The position numbers and the translations under genes are program-made. A stretch of 38,740 bases of DNA from Candidatus Izemoplasma acidinucleici. GTDB taxonomy: Bacteria > Bacillota_I > Bacilli_A > Izemoplasmatales > Izemoplasmataceae. Positions 20,707 to 37,467 of the stretch are shown one piece after another (positions within the stretch are counted from its first letter, which is position 1; every line of letters begins with the position of its first letter). The notes under the pieces are model-generated. The model saw nothing but the letters and a program-made list of their open reading frames with translations. It was not told where the DNA came from and did not search any database. Location of the stretch: the NCBI GenBank assembly GCA_004195325.1, contig SDWO01000118.1, positions 1-38,740 of the forward strand, in the 5' to 3' direction.

Positions 20707-21837
20707 ATGAACTACCTAGAGCAATTTCTTAAAGATGAGTCGTATATTGGTATTCTTTTAATATTAGATAAGGATTTACACATTACTGATTCGAACAACA
20801 GTTTTAAAGAGCTTACAGGTTATGCTGAGTTTGAATTAAGTAAAATGAAATTTGTTGATTTGATTTTACCATCAGATAAATCATTGTTTTATGATGTTCT
20901 ATACGATAGTTTAGTTACACAAGACATCACTATAAAACTATATAATAAAACTGGAGCTTTTCGATTTTTCTCAATTATAGTTCAAACTTTTGGAGATCAT
21001 TTCTTAGTTGTCGGAAACCCAATAAAGAAGGATTTTATTGGATATGATTATCATACTGAAATGGATTCATTTAGCAACGAACACTTCAATGATATAGAAG
21101 TTGATGATATTAGCGAATTTATAGGGTTTGACAGTGAGGCGTTTTTGTTCATTCTTGATTCTCTACCAATTGATATTTGGATCAAAAATAAATATGGAAA
21201 ATACATATATGTGAATAAGACATTCACATCACACACAGGACTAAATTATCAAGATACTAAAGGGAAGAATGACTTTGAACTATTTGAACCTGATATTGCA
21301 AAAGAGTTCGATGCTAGTGATAATACGGCTATCGAATCAAAAGAGCAACTAAACTATGTATTTGAATCAAAAAGCGATAAACTTCTAACTTGGACAGAAG
21401 TAACAAAAATTCCGATTTTTAATAAAGAGGAGAAATATATAGGAATTATTGGTTATAGCGTAGATATTTCTGACTATAAGAAACTTGAATCACTTCATAA
21501 GACGGATGCGCAAAGGTACCAACAACTATTCACTAGATTAGAAGATCTAGTTTTTGAGATTGACAACCATGGAAATGTTTTATTTATAGCTGGAGATTTG
21601 GTTAAAGATCTTAATATAGATGTAAAAGTTAGTAATGCAGCTAGACTTTTTATTACAAGGCAGAGCAATCTTGGCATTGAAGAAAAAATAAAATTAGCTT
21701 TAAATGGTACTGATGTAGACTTCTTGATCAAAATAGGGGAAAATGATGTACGCATAAACCTATACCCAGTAGTTAACCAAGAAGGGGTAATGAATATAAT
21801 AGGGTTCGGAAAAATTGTAGGTGGAGAAAATGAATAA
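20707..21837 (+). CDS. Multi-PAS sensor protein without an output domain
   Basis: A 376-residue soluble protein built of PAS-like repeats. PAS 1 spans about residues 10-108 (LLILDKDLHITDSNNSFKEL opening). PAS 2 spans about 150-262, with the classic DIWIKNKYGKYIYVNKTF opening and ending IIGYSVDISDYKKLE. A third, more divergent PAS-like segment spans about 270-370 (LVFEIDNHGNVLFIAG). There is no kinase, GGDEF or transmembrane segment. The gene overlaps the next one by 8 nt. The obvious inference is that it senses a ligand and acts on the GGDEF-HD-GYP protein encoded downstream, either directly or through shared PAS contacts. GAGGTGAT is the ribosome site. Confidence 0.78.
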   Translation: MNYLEQFLKDESYIGILLILDKDLHITDSNNSFKELTGYAEFELSKMKFVDLILPSDKSLFYDVLYDSLVTQDITIKLYNKTGAFRFFSIIVQTFGDHFLVVGNPIKKDFIGYDYHTEMDSFSNEHFNDIEVDDISEFIGFDSEAFLFILDSLPIDIWIKNKYGKYIYVNKTFTSHTGLNYQDTKGKNDFELFEPDIAKEFDASDNTAIESKEQLNYVFESKSDKLLTWTEVTKIPIFNKEEKYIGIIGYSVDISDYKKLESLHKTDAQRYQQLFTRLEDLVFEIDNHGNVLFIAGDLVKDLNIDVKVSNAARLFITRQSNLGIEEKIKLALNGTDVDFLIKIGENDVRINLYPVVNQEGVMNIIGFGKIVGGENE

Positions 21838-23833
21838 ATTAGATTCATTGTTTAAATCATTCAGCGAAGTTATAAATGATAGATTTGCTATCTTTGACGA
21901 TTTAAACAAATTGATTTATGTTTCTAACATTGAACAAGAGATTATTAAAAAAATTAAAATGAAAATCACTCATAATTTTGAAACAGCATATGAAGGAAAT
22001 ATAATGTTGATTGTCAAAACCTTCCTATTTGAAGGAAAACAATATAAAGTTGTATCATGTAAAAGCATTGAAGAGCAGATTAGATTTGAAGATCCATTTT
22101 TGAATAGAGTCGCATTCTTATATGATGACGCCCCTTATTCAATAGGGATTACTAAGAATGGAGAAGTAATATATAGAAATAACTTCACTGCTGACTTAAT
22201 AAGTTTAAGCTATGAAGAAAAGAACACGAAACCATTGTTTGAATCTGTTATTGATCGTGATAAACCTTTATTAGCCAAAGCGATAGAGGAAAGTTTAAGA
22301 TTACCGCAAGACATATATGTAACACTTGTGTCAGGAGTGCAAATTTATATAACTATTAGTTCAAATGAGTTTATGTACTTAGGAGAAAAATACAAAATAA
22401 TTACAATTACAGATTTAAGTGAAATGAAACGAAGTGAAGTAAAAGCAATTACTGAAAAAGATTATCTAGATCGCACCTTAGAATCTATCAGTGAAGGTAT
22501 TATACTGTTGGATTACGATTATAAAATTACTTTATTTAATTCTGTTGCAGAATCATTGTTATCTAAAAATAAACTACAAGTTCTTTATAAAAAGATAAAT
22601 GATGTACTAGTATTTACAGATGATAATTTCAAACAGATTGATATTACAAATATAGAAGACAGAACAATTGAAGGCTTTTCCATATCTGAAGATGGTCTCA
22701 TGAGAAATCTGAAATTGAGTATTTCCAGTATTACATCTATAGAAAAACAGCATTTGGGAAAAGTTTTAGTATTAACTGATTTATCAGAAACAAAAAGAAG
22801 AGAAGAAGAGATACTGTATTTGAGCTATCATGATGTTTTAACTGGGATTTATAATAGAACTTTCTTTGAAGAGGAAATAAAGCGTTTAGATACAGTCAGA
22901 AGTCTCCCTCTAGCTGTTATAATGGGAGATTTAAATGGGTTGAAGCTTACGAACGATGTTTTTGGTCATCATACAGGAGATGAATTATTAAGGAAATCTG
23001 CTGAAATTCTAAAACAAGCAACAAGATCTGAAGATATATTAGCAAGATGGGGTGGAGATGAATTTATTATTCTACTTCCAAATACAAATGATGAATCAGT
23101 TCATATGATCATGGACCGTATTAACAGAAAATTCGGGACAGAATTATCTGTGTCAAAAAGAGGGATATCACCAAGTATATCTTTAGGCTTTGGTGTCAAG
23201 GAACTTGAGGGTACGGAAATAGATGAAGTGATTTCTATTGCTGAGAAAAACATGTATAAACAAAAAATGTTGTCCAAGGAAAGTGTATATAGTGGCGCTG
23301 TTACATCAATGAAGACTGTTTTATTTGAGAAAAGCAATGAAACAGAAGAACATACAAATCGTCTATACAAAATGTGTAAAGTTGTTGCAGAAAAATATAA
23401 TATCACGACAGAGGAGCATAATGAACTTGAATTATTATGTATGCTTCACGATATTGGGAAAATTGGGATTGATGATTCCATCTTAAAAAAACCAGGTCCA
23501 CTAAATGAACTTGAGTGGATTGAAATGAAACGACATTCTGAAATAGGGTTTAGAATTGCACAGGCAATACCAGAACTCAAAACTGTAGCACTTCTTATAC
23601 TTTATCATCATGAGAAATTTGATGGTTCTGGTTACCCAAAACAATTGAAAGCATATGATATCCCATTATTAAGTAGAATAATTTGTGTTGCTGATGCTTA
23701 TGACGCTATGACAAATGATAGGGTATATAGAAAAGCATTGTCCAAAACTGTCGCAATCAATGAGTTAAAACAAAATTCTGGAACACAGTTTGATCCAGAA
23801 GTAGTAAAGATATTTTTATCTACTATAAAATAA
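21830..23833 (+). CDS. PAS-GGDEF-HD-GYP cyclic-di-GMP enzyme
   Basis: A 667-residue soluble signalling enzyme. PAS-like domains occupy about residues 95-200 and 215-325. The GGDEF domain follows with an intact active site G408-G-D-E-F412 and an intact inhibitory I-site R399-S-E-D402 five residues before it, so it should make c-di-GMP and be product-inhibited. The C-terminal HD-GYP phosphodiesterase is also intact: HD at 540-541 and HHEKFDGSGYP at 593-603. One protein thus both makes and breaks c-di-GMP, presumably switched by PAS input. I chose the ATG at 21830 (GGTGGAG before it) over the GTG at 21821. It overlaps the upstream PAS gene by 8 nt. Confidence 0.93.
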   Translation: MNKLDSLFKSFSEVINDRFAIFDDLNKLIYVSNIEQEIIKKIKMKITHNFETAYEGNIMLIVKTFLFEGKQYKVVSCKSIEEQIRFEDPFLNRVAFLYDDAPYSIGITKNGEVIYRNNFTADLISLSYEEKNTKPLFESVIDRDKPLLAKAIEESLRLPQDIYVTLVSGVQIYITISSNEFMYLGEKYKIITITDLSEMKRSEVKAITEKDYLDRTLESISEGIILLDYDYKITLFNSVAESLLSKNKLQVLYKKINDVLVFTDDNFKQIDITNIEDRTIEGFSISEDGLMRNLKLSISSITSIEKQHLGKVLVLTDLSETKRREEEILYLSYHDVLTGIYNRTFFEEEIKRLDTVRSLPLAVIMGDLNGLKLTNDVFGHHTGDELLRKSAEILKQATRSEDILARWGGDEFIILLPNTNDESVHMIMDRINRKFGTELSVSKRGISPSISLGFGVKELEGTEIDEVISIAEKNMYKQKMLSKESVYSGAVTSMKTVLFEKSNETEEHTNRLYKMCKVVAEKYNITTEEHNELELLCMLHDIGKIGIDDSILKKPGPLNELEWIEMKRHSEIGFRIAQAIPELKTVALLILYHHEKFDGSGYPKQLKAYDIPLLSRIICVADAYDAMTNDRVYRKALSKTVAINELKQNSGTQFDPEVVKIFLSTIK

Positions 23834-24070: not shown

Positions 24071-24147
24071 ATTATATCACCTTTTTCACTTATATATTGT
24101 ATAATAAAGTGAATTGAAATGAAAGTAGTTTGATAAGGAGTTTTATA

Positions 24148-25161
24148 ATGAGTAAAAACGCATACGTTACATTTATAATAAGAAATGATTCATTTTTACC
24201 AGGAGCACTGGTTTTTGGTTACGCACTGAGATTGCAAAAAACAGAGAATGATTTGGTTTGCATTGTCTCAGAAAATGTAAGTGAAATGGCAAAAAAATCA
24301 TTGGGATTAATATACGATAAAGTGATTACAGTTCCTGAGGTTTATGTACCTCATGAAAGAGGACACGAAAGACAAGACCGTCCATATCTCTTTTCTAGAT
24401 TTAATGCATTTAGACTTGGTAAAGATGGTGATTTGGGAACTGATTATGACAAAATAATTATTGCAGACTGTGATATATTACCTTTACACAATTATGACGA
24501 TCTTTTTAAGCTAAAAGCACCTGCTGGAATCATTAATGAGAAGAAAGAGAATTGCATGATATATGAGGACGGGAAGTATATAACCCCTGAAAGTGCATAT
24601 CTAGACGGAATGTGGAATTGGCATAAGATATATGAAGATATACCTCATGGAACTTTAATTCCTAAAGAAATTACTGAACGTATAAAAACAGATAAAACAA
24701 ATTTGGGAGTGCATTCATCTATATGCTTATATGAGCCTACAATGAAATTTTATAATTCGATTATGGATGACTTAGAAAACAAAGAAGTCCAAGAAGAAAT
24801 CAGTACATATAATTGGCCTGAAATGCAGTATATGTCTAATAAACTAAGTGGAAAATGGCACAATATGGATTTGAAGTATTCTTCTTTTAATGGGTACCCA
24901 GAAATCGAGTTCTTATATGGTACACATTTTGCAGGGTTGAAACCTTGGAGTATTAAAAATAGTAGTATCAAATCATTTGGAAAATTTGACGACTATAAAC
25001 TTTGGTATCACACGTATCTAAAGATGTGTGATCACATAGATGGGATTTTAGAACATCGCAAACTGAACAGATTATATAATTTTATTTCAAGAATGCTTGA
25101 GGATAAGAAGTATCAGTTTTATAAGACTTTTGTTCCACATTTATCACATTTTTTCGATTAA
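24148..25161 (+). CDS. Glycosyltransferase family 8 (glycogenin-like)
   Basis: A 337-residue GT-A fold retaining glycosyltransferase. N-terminal AYVTFIIRNDSFLPGALVFGYAL is typical of GT8 proteins. The metal/sugar-nucleotide DxD motif is DCD at about residues 107-109 in IIIADCDILPLHNYDDLF. A later KTNLGVHSSICLYEP segment replaces the FNAGVMLF block of classical members, and GTHFAGLKPW near the end fits the conserved HFxGxxKPW motif. No signal or membrane segment is seen. Donor and acceptor are unknown; an intracellular polysaccharide or lipid acceptor is possible. The ATG at 24148 follows AAGGAGT; an earlier ATA/ATG-like start at 24130 lacks a ribosome site. Confidence 0.85.
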   Translation: MSKNAYVTFIIRNDSFLPGALVFGYALRLQKTENDLVCIVSENVSEMAKKSLGLIYDKVITVPEVYVPHERGHERQDRPYLFSRFNAFRLGKDGDLGTDYDKIIIADCDILPLHNYDDLFKLKAPAGIINEKKENCMIYEDGKYITPESAYLDGMWNWHKIYEDIPHGTLIPKEITERIKTDKTNLGVHSSICLYEPTMKFYNSIMDDLENKEVQEEISTYNWPEMQYMSNKLSGKWHNMDLKYSSFNGYPEIEFLYGTHFAGLKPWSIKNSSIKSFGKFDDYKLWYHTYLKMCDHIDGILEHRKLNRLYNFISRMLEDKKYQFYKTFVPHLSHFFD

Positions 25162-29448: not shown

Positions 29449-29472
29449 AATAACACTTGAGAGGTGAACAAT

Positions 29473-30162
29473 ATGCTGTTTTTTGATTTCGCAAATCCGT
29501 ATTTGATTTACGCATTCTTTGTATTACTAACTGCGTATACGATTCGTTTAATGTTTACAAAAAAAGAATTTATAACAAAGAACATGAAAATGATATTGTT
29601 TATTGTTACACTTTTACTATTGTGGACTCAATATGTAAGATATTTCGATATTTTATTTTTCAGGTCTGAATTCAATATAGCCGCTAACTTACCATTTTTC
29701 ATATGTAGGGTTAGTGCTGTTGTCTTACTTTATTACGCAATAACTCAGGACAAGAGATTAGAAGGTTTTCTATTTTACTGGGGAGCGTTGGGACTAGCTG
29801 GTATCATTTATCCAAACGGACCTATAAGTAATATTGCAAATGTAACAGAAACATTCTACATAGACCATTTCTTATTAACTCTATCTCCATTCTTTGTAAT
29901 TGTTTATAAAGGATATAAACCAACATTAAAGGGGTTATTCTCTATTGTGGGGGTTATGATGGTAATGTTGTTTATCTTTGTACCACTTAACGCTTTGTGG
30001 GGTTCTGATTACTTCTACTTAGCGAACCAAAGTATCTTTGGGGAATTATTTCCAGATAGTAGTGTTGTCGCATTTATTATTGCTCATTGTATTGCTGCAG
30101 GAATTTTCTTTTATGGATATTATACAATTTTTAAAAATACAGATTTAAAGGTAAGTGAATGA
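29473..30162 (+). CDS. YwaF/TIGR02206-like integral membrane protein
   Basis: A 229-residue membrane protein with about six or seven hydrophobic helices. The central LPFFICRVSAVVLLYYAIT, FLFYWGALGLAGIIYPNGP and YIDHFLLTLSPFF segments match the YwaF/TIGR02206 pattern (a lP.hlC motif, then a Y.G..G...P motif, then an aromatic-H-H-like motif). The function of the family is unknown. I chose the ATG at 29473 because GAGGTG (29461-29466) is 6 nt before it; the GTG at 29464 is part of that site. It ends in TGA, the only TGA stop among complete genes here, 1 nt before the GT4 start. Coupling to the lipid glycosyltransferase suggests an envelope role. Confidence 0.75.
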   Translation: MLFFDFANPYLIYAFFVLLTAYTIRLMFTKKEFITKNMKMILFIVTLLLLWTQYVRYFDILFFRSEFNIAANLPFFICRVSAVVLLYYAITQDKRLEGFLFYWGALGLAGIIYPNGPISNIANVTETFYIDHFLLTLSPFFVIVYKGYKPTLKGLFSIVGVMMVMLFIFVPLNALWGSDYFYLANQSIFGELFPDSSVVAFIIAHCIAAGIFFYGYYTIFKNTDLKVSE

Positions 30163-33365: not shown

Positions 33366-33394
33366 TTGACAATTGATACTCAAAAGAATAGAAT
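33366..33394 (+). promoter_or_regulatory. Promoter of the tRNA cluster
   Basis: TTGACA (33366-33371), 17-bp spacer, TAGAAT (33389-33394). The first tRNA starts about 30 nt downstream. Confidence 0.85.
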
Positions 33395-33424
33395 AATATT
33401 AGTCTCTTTTCAAGAGAAGTATTT

Positions 33425-33501
33425 GGCGATTGTGGTGAAGTGGTTAACACACCGGCTTGTGGTGCCGGCATTCGTGGGTTCGATTCCCATCAGTCGCCCC
33501 A
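33425..33501 (+). tRNA. tRNA-His (GTG)
   Basis: A 77-nt tRNA with encoded CCA. The extra 5' G (G-1) pairs opposite discriminator C73, the histidine identity element. The acceptor GCGATTG pairs with CAGTCGC with one G-T wobble. The anticodon loop in CTTGTGGT reads GTG. It is the first of three closely spaced tRNAs. Confidence 0.95.
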
Positions 33502-33504
33502 TAA

Positions 33505-33579
33505 TGGGCTATGGCCAAGTGGTTAAGGCATCGGACTTTGACTCCGTGACCGAAGGTTCGACTCCTTCTAGCCCAACCA
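33505..33579 (+). tRNA. tRNA-Gln (TTG)
   Basis: A 75-nt tRNA with encoded CCA. The acceptor TGGGCTA pairs perfectly with TAGCCCA, and the loop CTTTGAC gives anticodon TTG. The T-arm is GAAGG-TTCGACT-CCTTC. The outermost anticodon-stem pair is a T-T mismatch. It begins 3 nt after tRNA-His. Confidence 0.95.
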
Positions 33580-33585
33580 TTATGT

Positions 33586-33668
33586 GCGGGTGTGGCGGAA
33601 CTGGCAGACGCGCTAGATTTAGGCTCTAGTTCTTAGGAGTGCAGGTTCAACTCCTGTCACCCGCACCA
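33586..33668 (+). tRNA. tRNA-Leu (TAG)
   Basis: An 83-nt class II tRNA with encoded CCA. The acceptor GCGGGTG pairs with CACCCGC, and the anticodon stem CTAGA/TCTAG flanks a loop with TAG. The long variable arm and CAGG-TTCAACT-CCTG T-arm are typical of tRNA-Leu. It ends the cluster. Confidence 0.95.
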
Positions 33669-33809: not shown

Positions 33810-34139
33810 ATGTTTGGTATTTTTAGAAAGAAAAAGCAAATAAAAGCAAATCTAACTAAGAAGCAAAACAGTGGTAGTAATACAACCAAGACCAACACCT
33901 TGAACTCAGACAAAAAAACCCGAGAAACAATCCGTTTAGAAAAGAAGCCGAAATCCTCTAATCATATTACAAAGCATCCAAGTGGAGGATGGCAAATCAA
34001 GAAATCCAATTCTGAGAGAGCTTTTAAAAAATTTAGAACGCAAAAAGAAGCAATTGAATTCGCTAAGAATTTAGAGGTTACAACAGGTGTTGAATTTATA
34101 ATACATAAGGCAGATGGGAATCCCCGCAAGAAAGCATAA
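33810..34139 (+). CDS. DUF2188 domain protein with basic N-terminal tail
   Basis: A 109-residue, strongly basic protein. The first 50 residues are a Lys/Asn/Thr-rich, probably disordered tail. Residues about 52-105 match the DUF2188 pattern: HITKHPSGGWQIKKSNSERAFKKFRTQKEAIEFAK, then GVEFIIHKADGNPR (strand-strand-helix-strand). The domain's function is unknown; its small size and charge suggest contact with nucleic acid or the ribosome, but that is a guess. AAGGAGGTA about 7 nt before the ATG is nearly an ideal ribosome site, implying high expression. It lies between the tRNA cluster and the GGDEF-EAL gene and is its own transcription unit. No convincing terminator follows. Confidence 0.75.
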   Translation: MFGIFRKKKQIKANLTKKQNSGSNTTKTNTLNSDKKTRETIRLEKKPKSSNHITKHPSGGWQIKKSNSERAFKKFRTQKEAIEFAKNLEVTTGVEFIIHKADGNPRKKA

Positions 34140-34302: not shown

Positions 34303-35625
34303 ATGGCTGATAAGCAAGTTTTAGAGAGAATCGCTTATATTGATGAACTAACAGGATTAAAGAATAAGAATGGATTACTTGATGATTTTGCAGATTCAAC
34401 ACTAGAGAATCAACACTTTATTTATGTTGATATTGATGAATTCAAAAAAATGAACGCAGTGTTTGGCATTGATGCTGTTGATAGACTACTAATCATTATT
34501 TCTAATACATTACAAGATTACTGTGGAATGTCACAAGTATATAGAATGGGTGCTGGACAATTTGTACTAGTTACAAAAAGTCATATTATTTGTGAGCCAA
34601 GTGAATTACAACACTTGTTACGACAACCAATTGTTTTAGATGACTTACAAATCATTGTCAAAGCAAGTATATGTGTGTTAGATCATGATGACTTCCCCAA
34701 AACAACATTAAAAAATGTTATTAAACTAATGCAGTTAACCCTAGATATTGAAAAAAGAAAAGGAAATAATGTCCTTGTTTTCGCAAGTAGTGAATCAAGA
34801 ATACAATATATTCAAAAAAGAGATATTGCATTGAGTTTATTTAGTGGAGTAAAAAACGATGAATTCTTTGCCAAATTCAAACCGTATATTGATACATATA
34901 CAAATGAAATTATAGGATATGAAACTGTTTCAAGATGGAATTTGAATGGAGAGTTATTACGTCCTCATAGTTTTCTTGAAGCAGCAGAATGGACTGGACT
35001 AGTTTATGATATTGAGCTAAAAATGTTTGAAGAAGGTGTGAAATTCCTAAATGAGCTTCGCGATATCAATGAACTAAAATCAAATAAATCTATTGATTTT
35101 CATAAACGATTCAAAGTAGGAGTGCACTTTAGTGCTTACACTTTGAAAAGAGTAGAAATATCAGAGCTACTGAAGATACTACAGAAGTACAAAGTTTCTC
35201 AAAAAGATATAATCATCCAAACTCAAGAGAGATTCATTGTAGATAAGGAAGCTTACAAAAAAATTAAAGAATTTCATGAACGAAATTTTATGGTTGGGTT
35301 AGATGAGTACTCTAATAGTTCAGCTAGTCTATCTTTTTTAGCAGATCTTAAAGTAGACATAATTAAGTTAAGTGAAAAACTATTACTTAAAATAGATAAC
35401 AATCAAGAATATACAAGAATGATGAATGTGTACAAATTTATTGTTGATATTGCCAAGAAATTCAATATTACGGTTGTTTCTGATGGAATTCATTCATCAG
35501 CAAACGCAAAATTAATTCGTAAATTAGATGTTCACATTGGACTTGGAAGTCACTACTCGAGAGCAGTTCCAAAAGATGGATTCATAAAATACGCTCAAAA
35601 CAATAAGAAAAAGAGGTTTAAATAG
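34303..35625 (+). CDS. Degenerate GGDEF-EAL protein
   Basis: A 440-residue soluble protein with both c-di-GMP domain folds but no catalytic motifs. The GGDEF fold opens with IAYIDELTGLKNKNGLLDDF at about 9-28, yet the active-site loop reads RMGAGQFVLV near residue 81, so G-G-D/E-E-F is lost. The EAL fold begins near 185; EAL reads ETV in GYETVSRWN near 206, and the DDFGTG loop reads DEYSNSS near 330, although DIIKLSEKLL keeps the usual Lys. It is therefore unlikely to make or cut c-di-GMP and may bind it or another nucleotide, or act by protein contact. GAGGTGG sets the start. The antiporter gene starts 2 nt after its stop. Confidence 0.85.
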   Translation: MADKQVLERIAYIDELTGLKNKNGLLDDFADSTLENQHFIYVDIDEFKKMNAVFGIDAVDRLLIIISNTLQDYCGMSQVYRMGAGQFVLVTKSHIICEPSELQHLLRQPIVLDDLQIIVKASICVLDHDDFPKTTLKNVIKLMQLTLDIEKRKGNNVLVFASSESRIQYIQKRDIALSLFSGVKNDEFFAKFKPYIDTYTNEIIGYETVSRWNLNGELLRPHSFLEAAEWTGLVYDIELKMFEEGVKFLNELRDINELKSNKSIDFHKRFKVGVHFSAYTLKRVEISELLKILQKYKVSQKDIIIQTQERFIVDKEAYKKIKEFHERNFMVGLDEYSNSSASLSFLADLKVDIIKLSEKLLLKIDNNQEYTRMMNVYKFIVDIAKKFNITVVSDGIHSSANAKLIRKLDVHIGLGSHYSRAVPKDGFIKYAQNNKKKRFK

Positions 35626-35627
35626 AA

Positions 35628-36992
35628 ATGTATATATTTCTAAGCACAACCTCAGATGAATTGTCAAAAACATTGATTGAATCATTTTATACAAATCACA
35701 TATTCATACTAGGACTTATGATCATATTAGCAATAATAGGTGGTAAATTAATTGAAAAACTTAATTTTCCAAAAGTAACAGGATATATATTAATGGGTAT
35801 CCTGGTTGGTCCAAGTTTATGGGGTATTATATTGAATGGTGCGGATTATTTGTTACCAGGAGATAATCATATTGCGTTTGACGGTGTTATTTCGACTGAA
35901 ATGATGCATGCATTCAAAATTATACGTCAGGTTGCAATCGGATTTATTGGATATACAATTGGATTAGAATTAAAACTATCAAAACTTAAAAAAACTGGGA
36001 AACAAGTAGCGGTAATAACTTTATCTCAAGCACTTTTCACAGCATTATTAGTTGGGGGAAGTGTGTTTATATTTTTACTGATAACGAACAACCCTTATGC
36101 GCTAACATATGGTTTAATCTTAGGTGCAATCGCAACAGCTACTGCACCAGCTCCAATTGTTGCCGTAGTTAAGAACTATAGAACAAAAGGTCCAGTAACT
36201 GATGTGTTACTACCTCTTGTAGCATTAGATGATGCTATAGGTATTATGTTGTTTGCAGTAATGTTATCTGTAGGAACAACTTTATTGGGTGTTTCAGGAG
36301 AAGCTTTATCTGCATTACAAATAATATATGAACCAGTAAAGGAAATTGTTTTAAGTTTAGGTCTAGGAGCAATTATCGGACTTGCACTATCTAAAATCGT
36401 CAAAATATTTAATAGAGAAAACGATGCTATGTTATTGATGATGATTATTGCAGCAGTATTATTCGGTATTGGACTTGGACAAGTAGTTCATGCATCAGCA
36501 ATATTATTACCAATGACTATTGGTGTGGTATTAACAAATACAATAGATGAATCATTCGAACATAGATTAACAAGAACTACTGATTTATTTACAGCGCCAA
36601 TCATGTTGTCTTTCTTCATGATTGCAGGACTTGAATTAGATTTAACTAAAATTCCTGTTATTGGAATTTTAGGAATCATTTATATTACTGTACGTGTTGT
36701 TGGTAAAGTTTCGGGTTCTTATTTCTCAGCAAAAGCTGTTAAGGCTCCACCTACAGTTATCAAATATTTGGGATGGACTCTTATTCCACAAGCGGGTGTT
36801 GCTATTGATATGGCAATCACTGCGAACCAAAGATTTAGTGACTTGGTTGGGTTTGCAGATATAGGTAAGAACATTATGGCTATTGTTTTAACTGCTACCG
36901 TCTTTTATGAGGTAATTGGGTTAGTAATTGTCAAGAATGCTCTTCATAAAGCAGGAGAGATTGACGCAGCTGACACAGGATGGAAAGGATAA
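35628..36992 (+). CDS. CPA2-family cation/proton antiporter
   Basis: A 454-residue membrane transporter with about 12 helices. The N-terminal part has KLNFPKVTGYILMGILVGPSLWG, a CPA2 hallmark (helix TM2 region). GLILGAIATATAPAPIVAVV near residues 163-182 is the unwound TM4 region, and VLLPLVALDDAIGIMLFAVM near 190-209 carries the Asp residues needed for ion transport. The C-terminal LGWTLIPQAGVAIDMAI is the TM11 region. It has no RCK/KTN nucleotide-binding domain, unlike KefB/KefC, so any gating must come from another protein. The preceding degenerate GGDEF-EAL protein, 2 nt upstream, is the obvious candidate. Whether it carries Na+ or K+ is not readable. Confidence 0.9.
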   Translation: MYIFLSTTSDELSKTLIESFYTNHIFILGLMIILAIIGGKLIEKLNFPKVTGYILMGILVGPSLWGIILNGADYLLPGDNHIAFDGVISTEMMHAFKIIRQVAIGFIGYTIGLELKLSKLKKTGKQVAVITLSQALFTALLVGGSVFIFLLITNNPYALTYGLILGAIATATAPAPIVAVVKNYRTKGPVTDVLLPLVALDDAIGIMLFAVMLSVGTTLLGVSGEALSALQIIYEPVKEIVLSLGLGAIIGLALSKIVKIFNRENDAMLLMMIIAAVLFGIGLGQVVHASAILLPMTIGVVLTNTIDESFEHRLTRTTDLFTAPIMLSFFMIAGLELDLTKIPVIGILGIIYITVRVVGKVSGSYFSAKAVKAPPTVIKYLGWTLIPQAGVAIDMAITANQRFSDLVGFADIGKNIMAIVLTATVFYEVIGLVIVKNALHKAGEIDAADTGWKG

Positions 36993-37000
36993 ACTAAAAA

Positions 37001-37030
37001 AAGAAGCTAATTTAGCTTCTTTCTTTTTTT
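37001..37030. terminator. Bidirectional terminator, antiporter and bcp
   Basis: AAGAAGCT (37001-37008) pairs with AGCTTCTT (37014-37021), followed by a T-rich run. It overlaps the bcp stop region. Confidence 0.85.
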
Positions 37031-37467
37031 TAAAGATCACTTAATACTTGTTCAGCGTGACCTTTTGCTTTTACATTTCTATATTCCTTTACGATAGCAC
37101 CATTTTTATCAAGGATAAAGGTGCTTCTAATAATACCCATATACGTTCTTCCATACATGCTCTTTTCTTTCAAAACATCAAATGCTTTAACAAGTTCTTC
37201 ATTAACATCACTTAATAATAGTAAATCAAGTTCCTGTTTTAGAATGAAATTTTTATGAGATTTAATACTATCTCTACTTACTCCAATAATTTTGTATCCT
37301 TTATTACCGAATTCTTTTTTTAAGGAAGTAAATGTTTTTGATTCTAAAGTACAACCTGAAGTATTATCTTTTGGATAGAAATACAGTACTATTTTTTGAC
37401 CTTTAAAGTCCTCTAATGAATATGATTTGTCATCACTTGCATCTAGTTTAATGGTTATGTAATTCAT
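37030..37467 (-). CDS. bcp: Thiol peroxidase, Bcp/PrxQ type
   Basis: A 145-residue thioredoxin-fold peroxiredoxin that reduces hydrogen and organic peroxides. The peroxidatic site is YPKDNTSGCTLES near residues 32-44, with the Thr and Cys typical of Bcp. The Arg partner is in VSRDS near residue 65. GRTYMGIIRSTFILDKNG completes the family core. There is only one Cys, so it lacks the usual resolving Cys five residues later and would work as a 1-Cys enzyme with an outside thiol. The ATG at 37467 has AAAGGA upstream; the longer open frame to 37509 lies in yidD. It overlaps yidD by 20 nt. Confidence 0.92.
   Translation of the reverse strand: MNYITIKLDASDDKSYSLEDFKGQKIVLYFYPKDNTSGCTLESKTFTSLKKEFGNKGYKIIGVSRDSIKSHKNFILKQELDLLLLSDVNEELVKAFDVLKEKSMYGRTYMGIIRSTFILDKNGAIVKEYRNVKAKGHAEQVLSDL

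Follow-up and report, generated by a model that had tools for sequence, protein, structure and literature searches.

A conserved gene pair in the Izemoplasmataceae encodes a degenerate GGDEF-EAL protein and a cation/proton antiporter: a candidate nucleotide receptor subunit for ion exchange

Among second messengers, c-di-AMP is known to control monovalent-cation antiporters, by way of RCK_C subunits, and the outputs of c-di-GMP lie mostly in motility, adhesion and polysaccharides. In the closest described systems, KhtT-KhtU and CpeA-CpeB, c-di-AMP changes the contact between receptor and antiporter and, for KhtU, also antiporter activity (PMC10117811). Among degenerate proteins that bind c-di-GMP, FimX does so with four of ten catalytic residues left, including the Glu, the Arg and the Lys (PMC3527489), and in LapD the Arg after the EAL motif lies centrally in the site for c-di-GMP (PMC3032553). 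A diguanylate cyclase of Halomonas that influences salt tolerance is under the control of a transcription regulator and has no tie to an antiporter (PMC12421958). In the open literature we found no case of a cation/proton antiporter controlled by c-di-GMP or by a GGDEF-EAL protein (a provisional absence, subscription papers being outside the scope of the search) and no work on c-di-GMP in the Izemoplasmataceae.

Here we describe a two-gene locus from Candidatus Izemoplasma acidinucleici, a member of the Izemoplasmataceae, which are free-living, mollicute-like bacteria. The window, that is, the whole stretch of DNA analysed, comprises 38,740 nt of contig SDWO01000118.1 (GenBank assembly GCA_004195325.1) and belongs to a 1.9-Mb draft genome of 191 contigs that is 89% complete; comparisons within the family covered 49 genomes. 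The features on which the argument draws are as follows.

21821..23833, + strand: intact PAS-GGDEF-HD-GYP c-di-GMP enzyme, context only (Pfam; RWGGDEF, HDIGK and GYP present)
33426..33668, + strand: upstream cluster of tRNA-His, tRNA-Gln and tRNA-Leu (ARAGORN and Rfam)
34303..35625, + strand: degenerate soluble GGDEF-EAL protein, candidate receptor subunit, 440 aa (Pfam, motif comparison, AlphaFold2)
35598..35630, + strand: junction between the end of the GGDEF-EAL gene and the start of antiporter A, purine-rich, with stop, 2 nt and start (sequence)
35628..36992, + strand: CPA2-type cation/proton antiporter A, 454 aa, without RCK/TrkA (Pfam, weak TIGR00932 match, alignment, Foldseek)
37000..37031, + strand: terminator-like hairpin with T-run directly after A (consensus scan, consensus match only)

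Pfam assigned residues 11–156 of the first protein to GGDEF (45.8 bits) and residues 182–420 to EAL (121.8 bits), with no domain beyond these two. An AlphaFold2 model from a 15-row alignment shows both folds at a mean pLDDT of 85, and its best solved matches in Foldseek were the tandem GGDEF-EAL structures DosP, MorA, PA0575 and LapD (E 1e-31 to 1e-22); Pfam, model and structural matches thus agree with the initial annotation, which had called both folds otherwise intact. The top-scoring 19-residue hydropathy stretch reaches 1.44 (Kyte-Doolittle) and lies inside the GGDEF core. To judge by its sequence, the protein is cytosolic and soluble, with no membrane anchor leading to a periplasmic output as in LapD.

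The degenerate motifs quoted by the same annotation were found again on re-reading (RMGAGQF at residue 81, ETVSR at 207 and DEYSNS at 334). To place them, we set the canonical EAL positions of 15 orthologues beside those of DosP and of 15 further GGDEF-EAL proteins, one of them from Sporolactobacillus and the others encoded in the window genome or in genomes related to it. With few exceptions, the comparison proteins carry the EAL Glu, the Arg, the Asn, both Glu of EITE, the loop 6 Asp, the Lys, both Glu of AEGVE and the Gln. In the orthologues, by contrast, the first Glu of AEGVE is gone in 15/15 and the Gln in 14/15, and loop 6 reads D-[EDNH]-[YF] where DDF is canonical. Their GGDEF motif has become GxDQF in 13 cases and GAGQF in the window protein, and is intact in a single genome, G010; the degenerate motif has no RxxD site upstream.

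In RocR, the metal ligands are E175, N233, E265, D295, D296 and E352, and Q161 and R179 bind the substrate (PMC7911125); in TBD1265, Ala at the first Glu of ExxE abolished activity (PMC12943098). Because ligand and catalytic residues of these kinds have been lost, phosphodiesterase activity is very likely absent from the orthologues, and the description of the protein as catalytically dead holds, as a trait specific to this orthologue group when its 15 members are set against the 15 comparison proteins. It is therefore hard to see the protein as a residual enzyme, be it a weak phosphodiesterase or, as in G010, a diguanylate cyclase, that makes or removes c-di-GMP locally, beside the antiporter. 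The EAL Glu, the Arg and the Lys are kept in all orthologues and would allow for it, as would the G010 orthologue (L073:7738-9030), in which RIGGDEF and a near-canonical metal-binding stretch may point either to a working cyclase or to a protein partway through decay; but the very Glu whose change to Ala inactivated TBD1265 (PMC12943098) is missing throughout, loop 6 and most of the Gln residues are gone and the GGDEF motif is degenerate in the other 14, and we regard residual catalysis as highly improbable.

Other pocket residues have stayed. Glu207, Arg211, Glu309, Asp334 and Lys355 are invariant in 15/15 orthologues, and Asn275 and Glu306 are present in 14/15, the exception both times being the window protein, where the Asn at residue 275 is His and the first Glu of EITE, at residue 306, is Gln. 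Pocket residues are retained beyond the expectation for EAL columns at a P value of about 0.002–0.005, which is rough because such residues, belonging to the core of the fold, are usually conserved in any case. The retained E, R, N, E, E, D and K, together with the lost catalytic Glu, usually the lost Gln, and the lost DDF loop, look like the pattern of a receptor, and the window copy, having lost two further metal ligands, is the least certain nucleotide binder of the group.

The same residues bear on another possibility, namely that the protein helps to regulate or assemble A as one of its subunits, no longer binds any nucleotide and serves as a scaffold or as a sensor of pH, ions or another protein. 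A window copy stripped of the Asn, Glu, catalytic Glu and Gln positions and of the GGDEF motif would suit such a role, and so would the degenerate GGDEF motif in 14/15 orthologues with no upstream RxxD site; the joint gene loss described below would fit any obligate partner. On the other hand, a pocket that keeps E, R, D and K in 15/15 orthologues and N and E in 14/15 is unexpected where there is no ligand, and we think a subunit of this kind rather unlikely.

Antiporter A matches Pfam Na_H_Exchanger over residues 33–424 (110.8 bits) and has no Pfam match to TrkA or RCK, its chain ending 30 residues past the exchanger domain; TIGR00932 scored 49.7 bits where its cut-off is 238, which makes any subfamily assignment tentative. 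Open reading frames and Pfam agree that the antiporter starts 2 nt after the stop of its neighbour and has no RCK domain, as first annotated, but the suggestion that this absence makes A odd did not stand, since paralogues B and C in the same genomes are also without RCK. Antiporters of the NapA/NhaP type have no RCK domain. The single TrkA_C match in the window genome lies on another contig, in a frame of its own that, at 226 aa, has the size of KtrA.

In an alignment of 13 orthologues of A, the acidic pair of ALDDAIGI and the lysine of RVVGK (late core helix) are invariant, and as both are kept in all orthologues, A should be active as a transporter in its own right. The structural model of A is weak (pLDDT only 66), and its Foldseek matches were NHA2, NhaP, NapA and SLC9C1; by NapA topology, the N-terminus is presumably extracytoplasmic. 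The short C-tail, AGEI(D)..W, is specific to A, and paralogues B and C end otherwise. In the closest orthologue pair, the GGDEF-EAL gene has a dN/dS of about 0.11 and the antiporter A gene one of 0.06, values that indicate purifying selection on both.

The ribosome-binding site of A likely lies inside the upstream gene, which would couple translation of the two. A basic C-tail, KKRK, on the GGDEF-EAL protein was considered as a docking or membrane signal and rejected: the stretch encoding it is also where the ribosome-binding site probably lies, so that the tail may be a by-product, and the tail is missing in two of the genomes with a longer intergenic gap. The predicted hairpin after A, at 37000-37022, closes the two-gene unit in the window, and beyond it stands a convergent peroxiredoxin gene. 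Upstream, the tRNA cluster serves to mark the locus because it is kept in genomes that have lost the pair. Two upstream reading frames were set aside, one (33366-33629, 87 aa, seemingly conserved in 13 genomes) being the tRNA-His/Gln/Leu cluster read as protein and the other (DUF2188, 33810-34139) not being conserved at the locus. No riboswitch was found in the window, and a c-di-GMP riboswitch as the link of the pair was dropped. Elsewhere in the window, a 343-aa frame (24130-25161) has no Pfam or NCBIfam match, and a 232-aa membrane protein (29464-30162; Pfam TMEM164, 71 bits) is conserved at the locus in relatives.

Orthologues of the GGDEF-EAL protein scored >370 bits in 15 of the 49 family genomes (next best about 104 bits, in a wider sample) and those of A >369 bits in the same 15 (next best antiporter 335 bits, encoded elsewhere), so that both genes are present in 15 genomes and neither in 34. 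The genomes with matching loci include the named Candidatus Izimaplasma HR2 and ZiA1 as well as metagenome-assembled relatives. In all 15 the two genes are adjacent on the same strand, with a gap of −10 to +7 nt, and we saw no case in which the two proteins are fused. Sampling 395 genomes from the class turned up no orthologues outside the Izemoplasmataceae, and matches in named genomes beyond the family were ordinary homologues only (20–32% identity). Conservation of the pair across relatives, the check proposed with the initial annotation, is thus seen in adjacency, in shared presence and absence and in repeated joint loss. Adjacency by itself is weak evidence because the locus is syntenic over >10 kb.

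The joint losses can be read from the genes on either side. Antiporter B, about 39–45% identical to A, follows A in 13/14 relatives, mostly some 75–135 nt on; in G064 the contig ends before the position of B and also cuts A. At the window locus B is absent while the pair stays. In G016, G020, G065 and G067, the order of LTA-synthase-like gene, tRNAs and B is kept and exactly the GGDEF-EAL gene and A are missing. The locus of G016, a genome 99% complete, runs in the same order through LTA-synthase-like gene, tRNAs, B, peroxiredoxin, YidD, YtxK and acetate kinase; G020 and G067 have this pair-less arrangement as far as B, on shorter contigs, and for G065 and G067 the presence of the tRNA-His-Gln-Leu cluster was confirmed. 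When presence or absence of the pair is mapped onto a tree built from the LTA-synthase-like protein, five changes are required, of which well-supported branches force four; pair-less G016 and pair-bearing G068 are sisters on this tree. This implies, within the clade, one gain of the pair followed by at least three joint losses, a count drawn from genomes that are partly drafts, though the gap is seen inside assembled contigs. Two further observations concern single genomes: at the pair-less locus of G065, two B-type antiporters follow one another in tandem (L127:8029-10680), and in G034 (L066:9086-10387) A is split by a stop, through sequencing error or decay, beside an intact GGDEF-EAL partner.

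Could the two genes be mere neighbours, with the GGDEF-EAL protein acting elsewhere in the c-di-GMP network and with a shared transcript and chance co-deletion behind the pattern? Synteny is wide around the locus, and adjacent genes may go in a single deletion event, which weakens joint loss as evidence. In their trees, the GGDEF-EAL protein and A show the same groupings of close relatives, which is what vertical descent predicts, and the distance correlation (mirror-tree) of the GGDEF-EAL protein is no higher with A (partial r 0.45) than with B (0.51), so we discarded it as a test of partnership. Yet the pair was lost together at least three times while B, about 100 nt away, was retained, co-occurrence is perfect across the 49 genomes, and at the window locus it is B alone that is absent. 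We judge neighbours without direct interaction to be an unlikely explanation.

The GGDEF-EAL gene and antiporter A are a real, conserved two-gene module. Because they always stand in one unit and are lost together, the GGDEF-EAL protein is probably a regulator of antiporter A, and we infer that the partnership is both regulatory and physical.

As for the ligand, GGDEF domains occur in 49/49 Izemoplasmataceae genomes, with 22 in the window genome, and c-di-GMP-I riboswitches score over the cut-off in 33/49, with three in the window genome; PilZ domains were found in 0/49. The intact c-di-GMP enzyme that the initial annotation placed 10 kb away is there, a PAS-GGDEF-HD-GYP protein at 10.5 kb. 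By this gene content, c-di-GMP is evidently used in the window genome. The riboswitches of the family frequently come in tandem sets of two or three that span no more than 400 bases (G003:C71:11664-11990, G017:C45:5677-5862 and G063:C105:2914-3109).

Our main reading, which we put at about one chance in two, is that a dead GGDEF-EAL receptor subunit binds a guanine nucleotide and, by contact, changes the activity of the co-translated antiporter A. The nucleotide would most likely be c-di-GMP, bound in the residual EAL pocket of the cytosolic protein, with GTP as a possible ligand at the GGDEF fold; the loaded protein would touch the cytosolic side of A and so alter its activity, and translational coupling would keep the two proteins in step. 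The naming of c-di-GMP is a guess from the pocket and the genomic context, as any statement on opening or closing of transport would be, and the one argument for c-di-AMP as ligand would be the analogy with KhtT. A fuller version, in which A is gated by c-di-GMP, the dead protein is its dedicated receptor and ion and pH homeostasis is tied to c-di-GMP without PilZ, we offer tentatively, as possible rather than probable.

The antiporter side of the module shares its fold with several known exchangers. NapA, NHA2 and NhaP have the DD motif and the lysine at conserved positions, and we know of no partner receptor encoded alongside them. SLC9C1, a Na+/H+ exchanger of the same fold by Foldseek, is controlled by nucleotide, but it is eukaryotic and carries its cAMP/cGMP-binding domain in the same chain, whereas here a separate subunit is proposed. 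On the receptor side, LapD and FimX are likewise tandem degenerate GGDEF-EAL proteins that act as non-enzymatic c-di-GMP receptors and keep the Arg that follows EAL. LapD sits in the membrane and controls a periplasmic protease through its partner LapG, whereas the protein described here is predicted to be soluble, with no extra domain; FimX acts on type IV pili, and neither has been linked to an ion transporter.

The arrangement as a whole is closest to KhtT-KhtU of Bacillus subtilis and CpeA-CpeB of Streptomyces, where a CPA2-type antiporter is likewise encoded alongside a separate cytosolic receptor. Those antiporters exchange K+ for H+, whereas A is a predicted cation/proton antiporter; their receptor is an RCK_C protein for c-di-AMP, whereas beside A the place of the stand-alone RCK_C protein of KhtTU is taken by a GGDEF-EAL protein that has no RCK portion. 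If our main reading is right, such a subunit would be a second, unrelated route of antiporter control and a new output of c-di-GMP, and the conserved GGDEF-EAL protein is a concrete candidate for a c-di-GMP protein receptor in the PilZ-less Izemoplasmataceae. By analogy, the best reading is that it works for A as KhtT does for KhtU, with a different fold.
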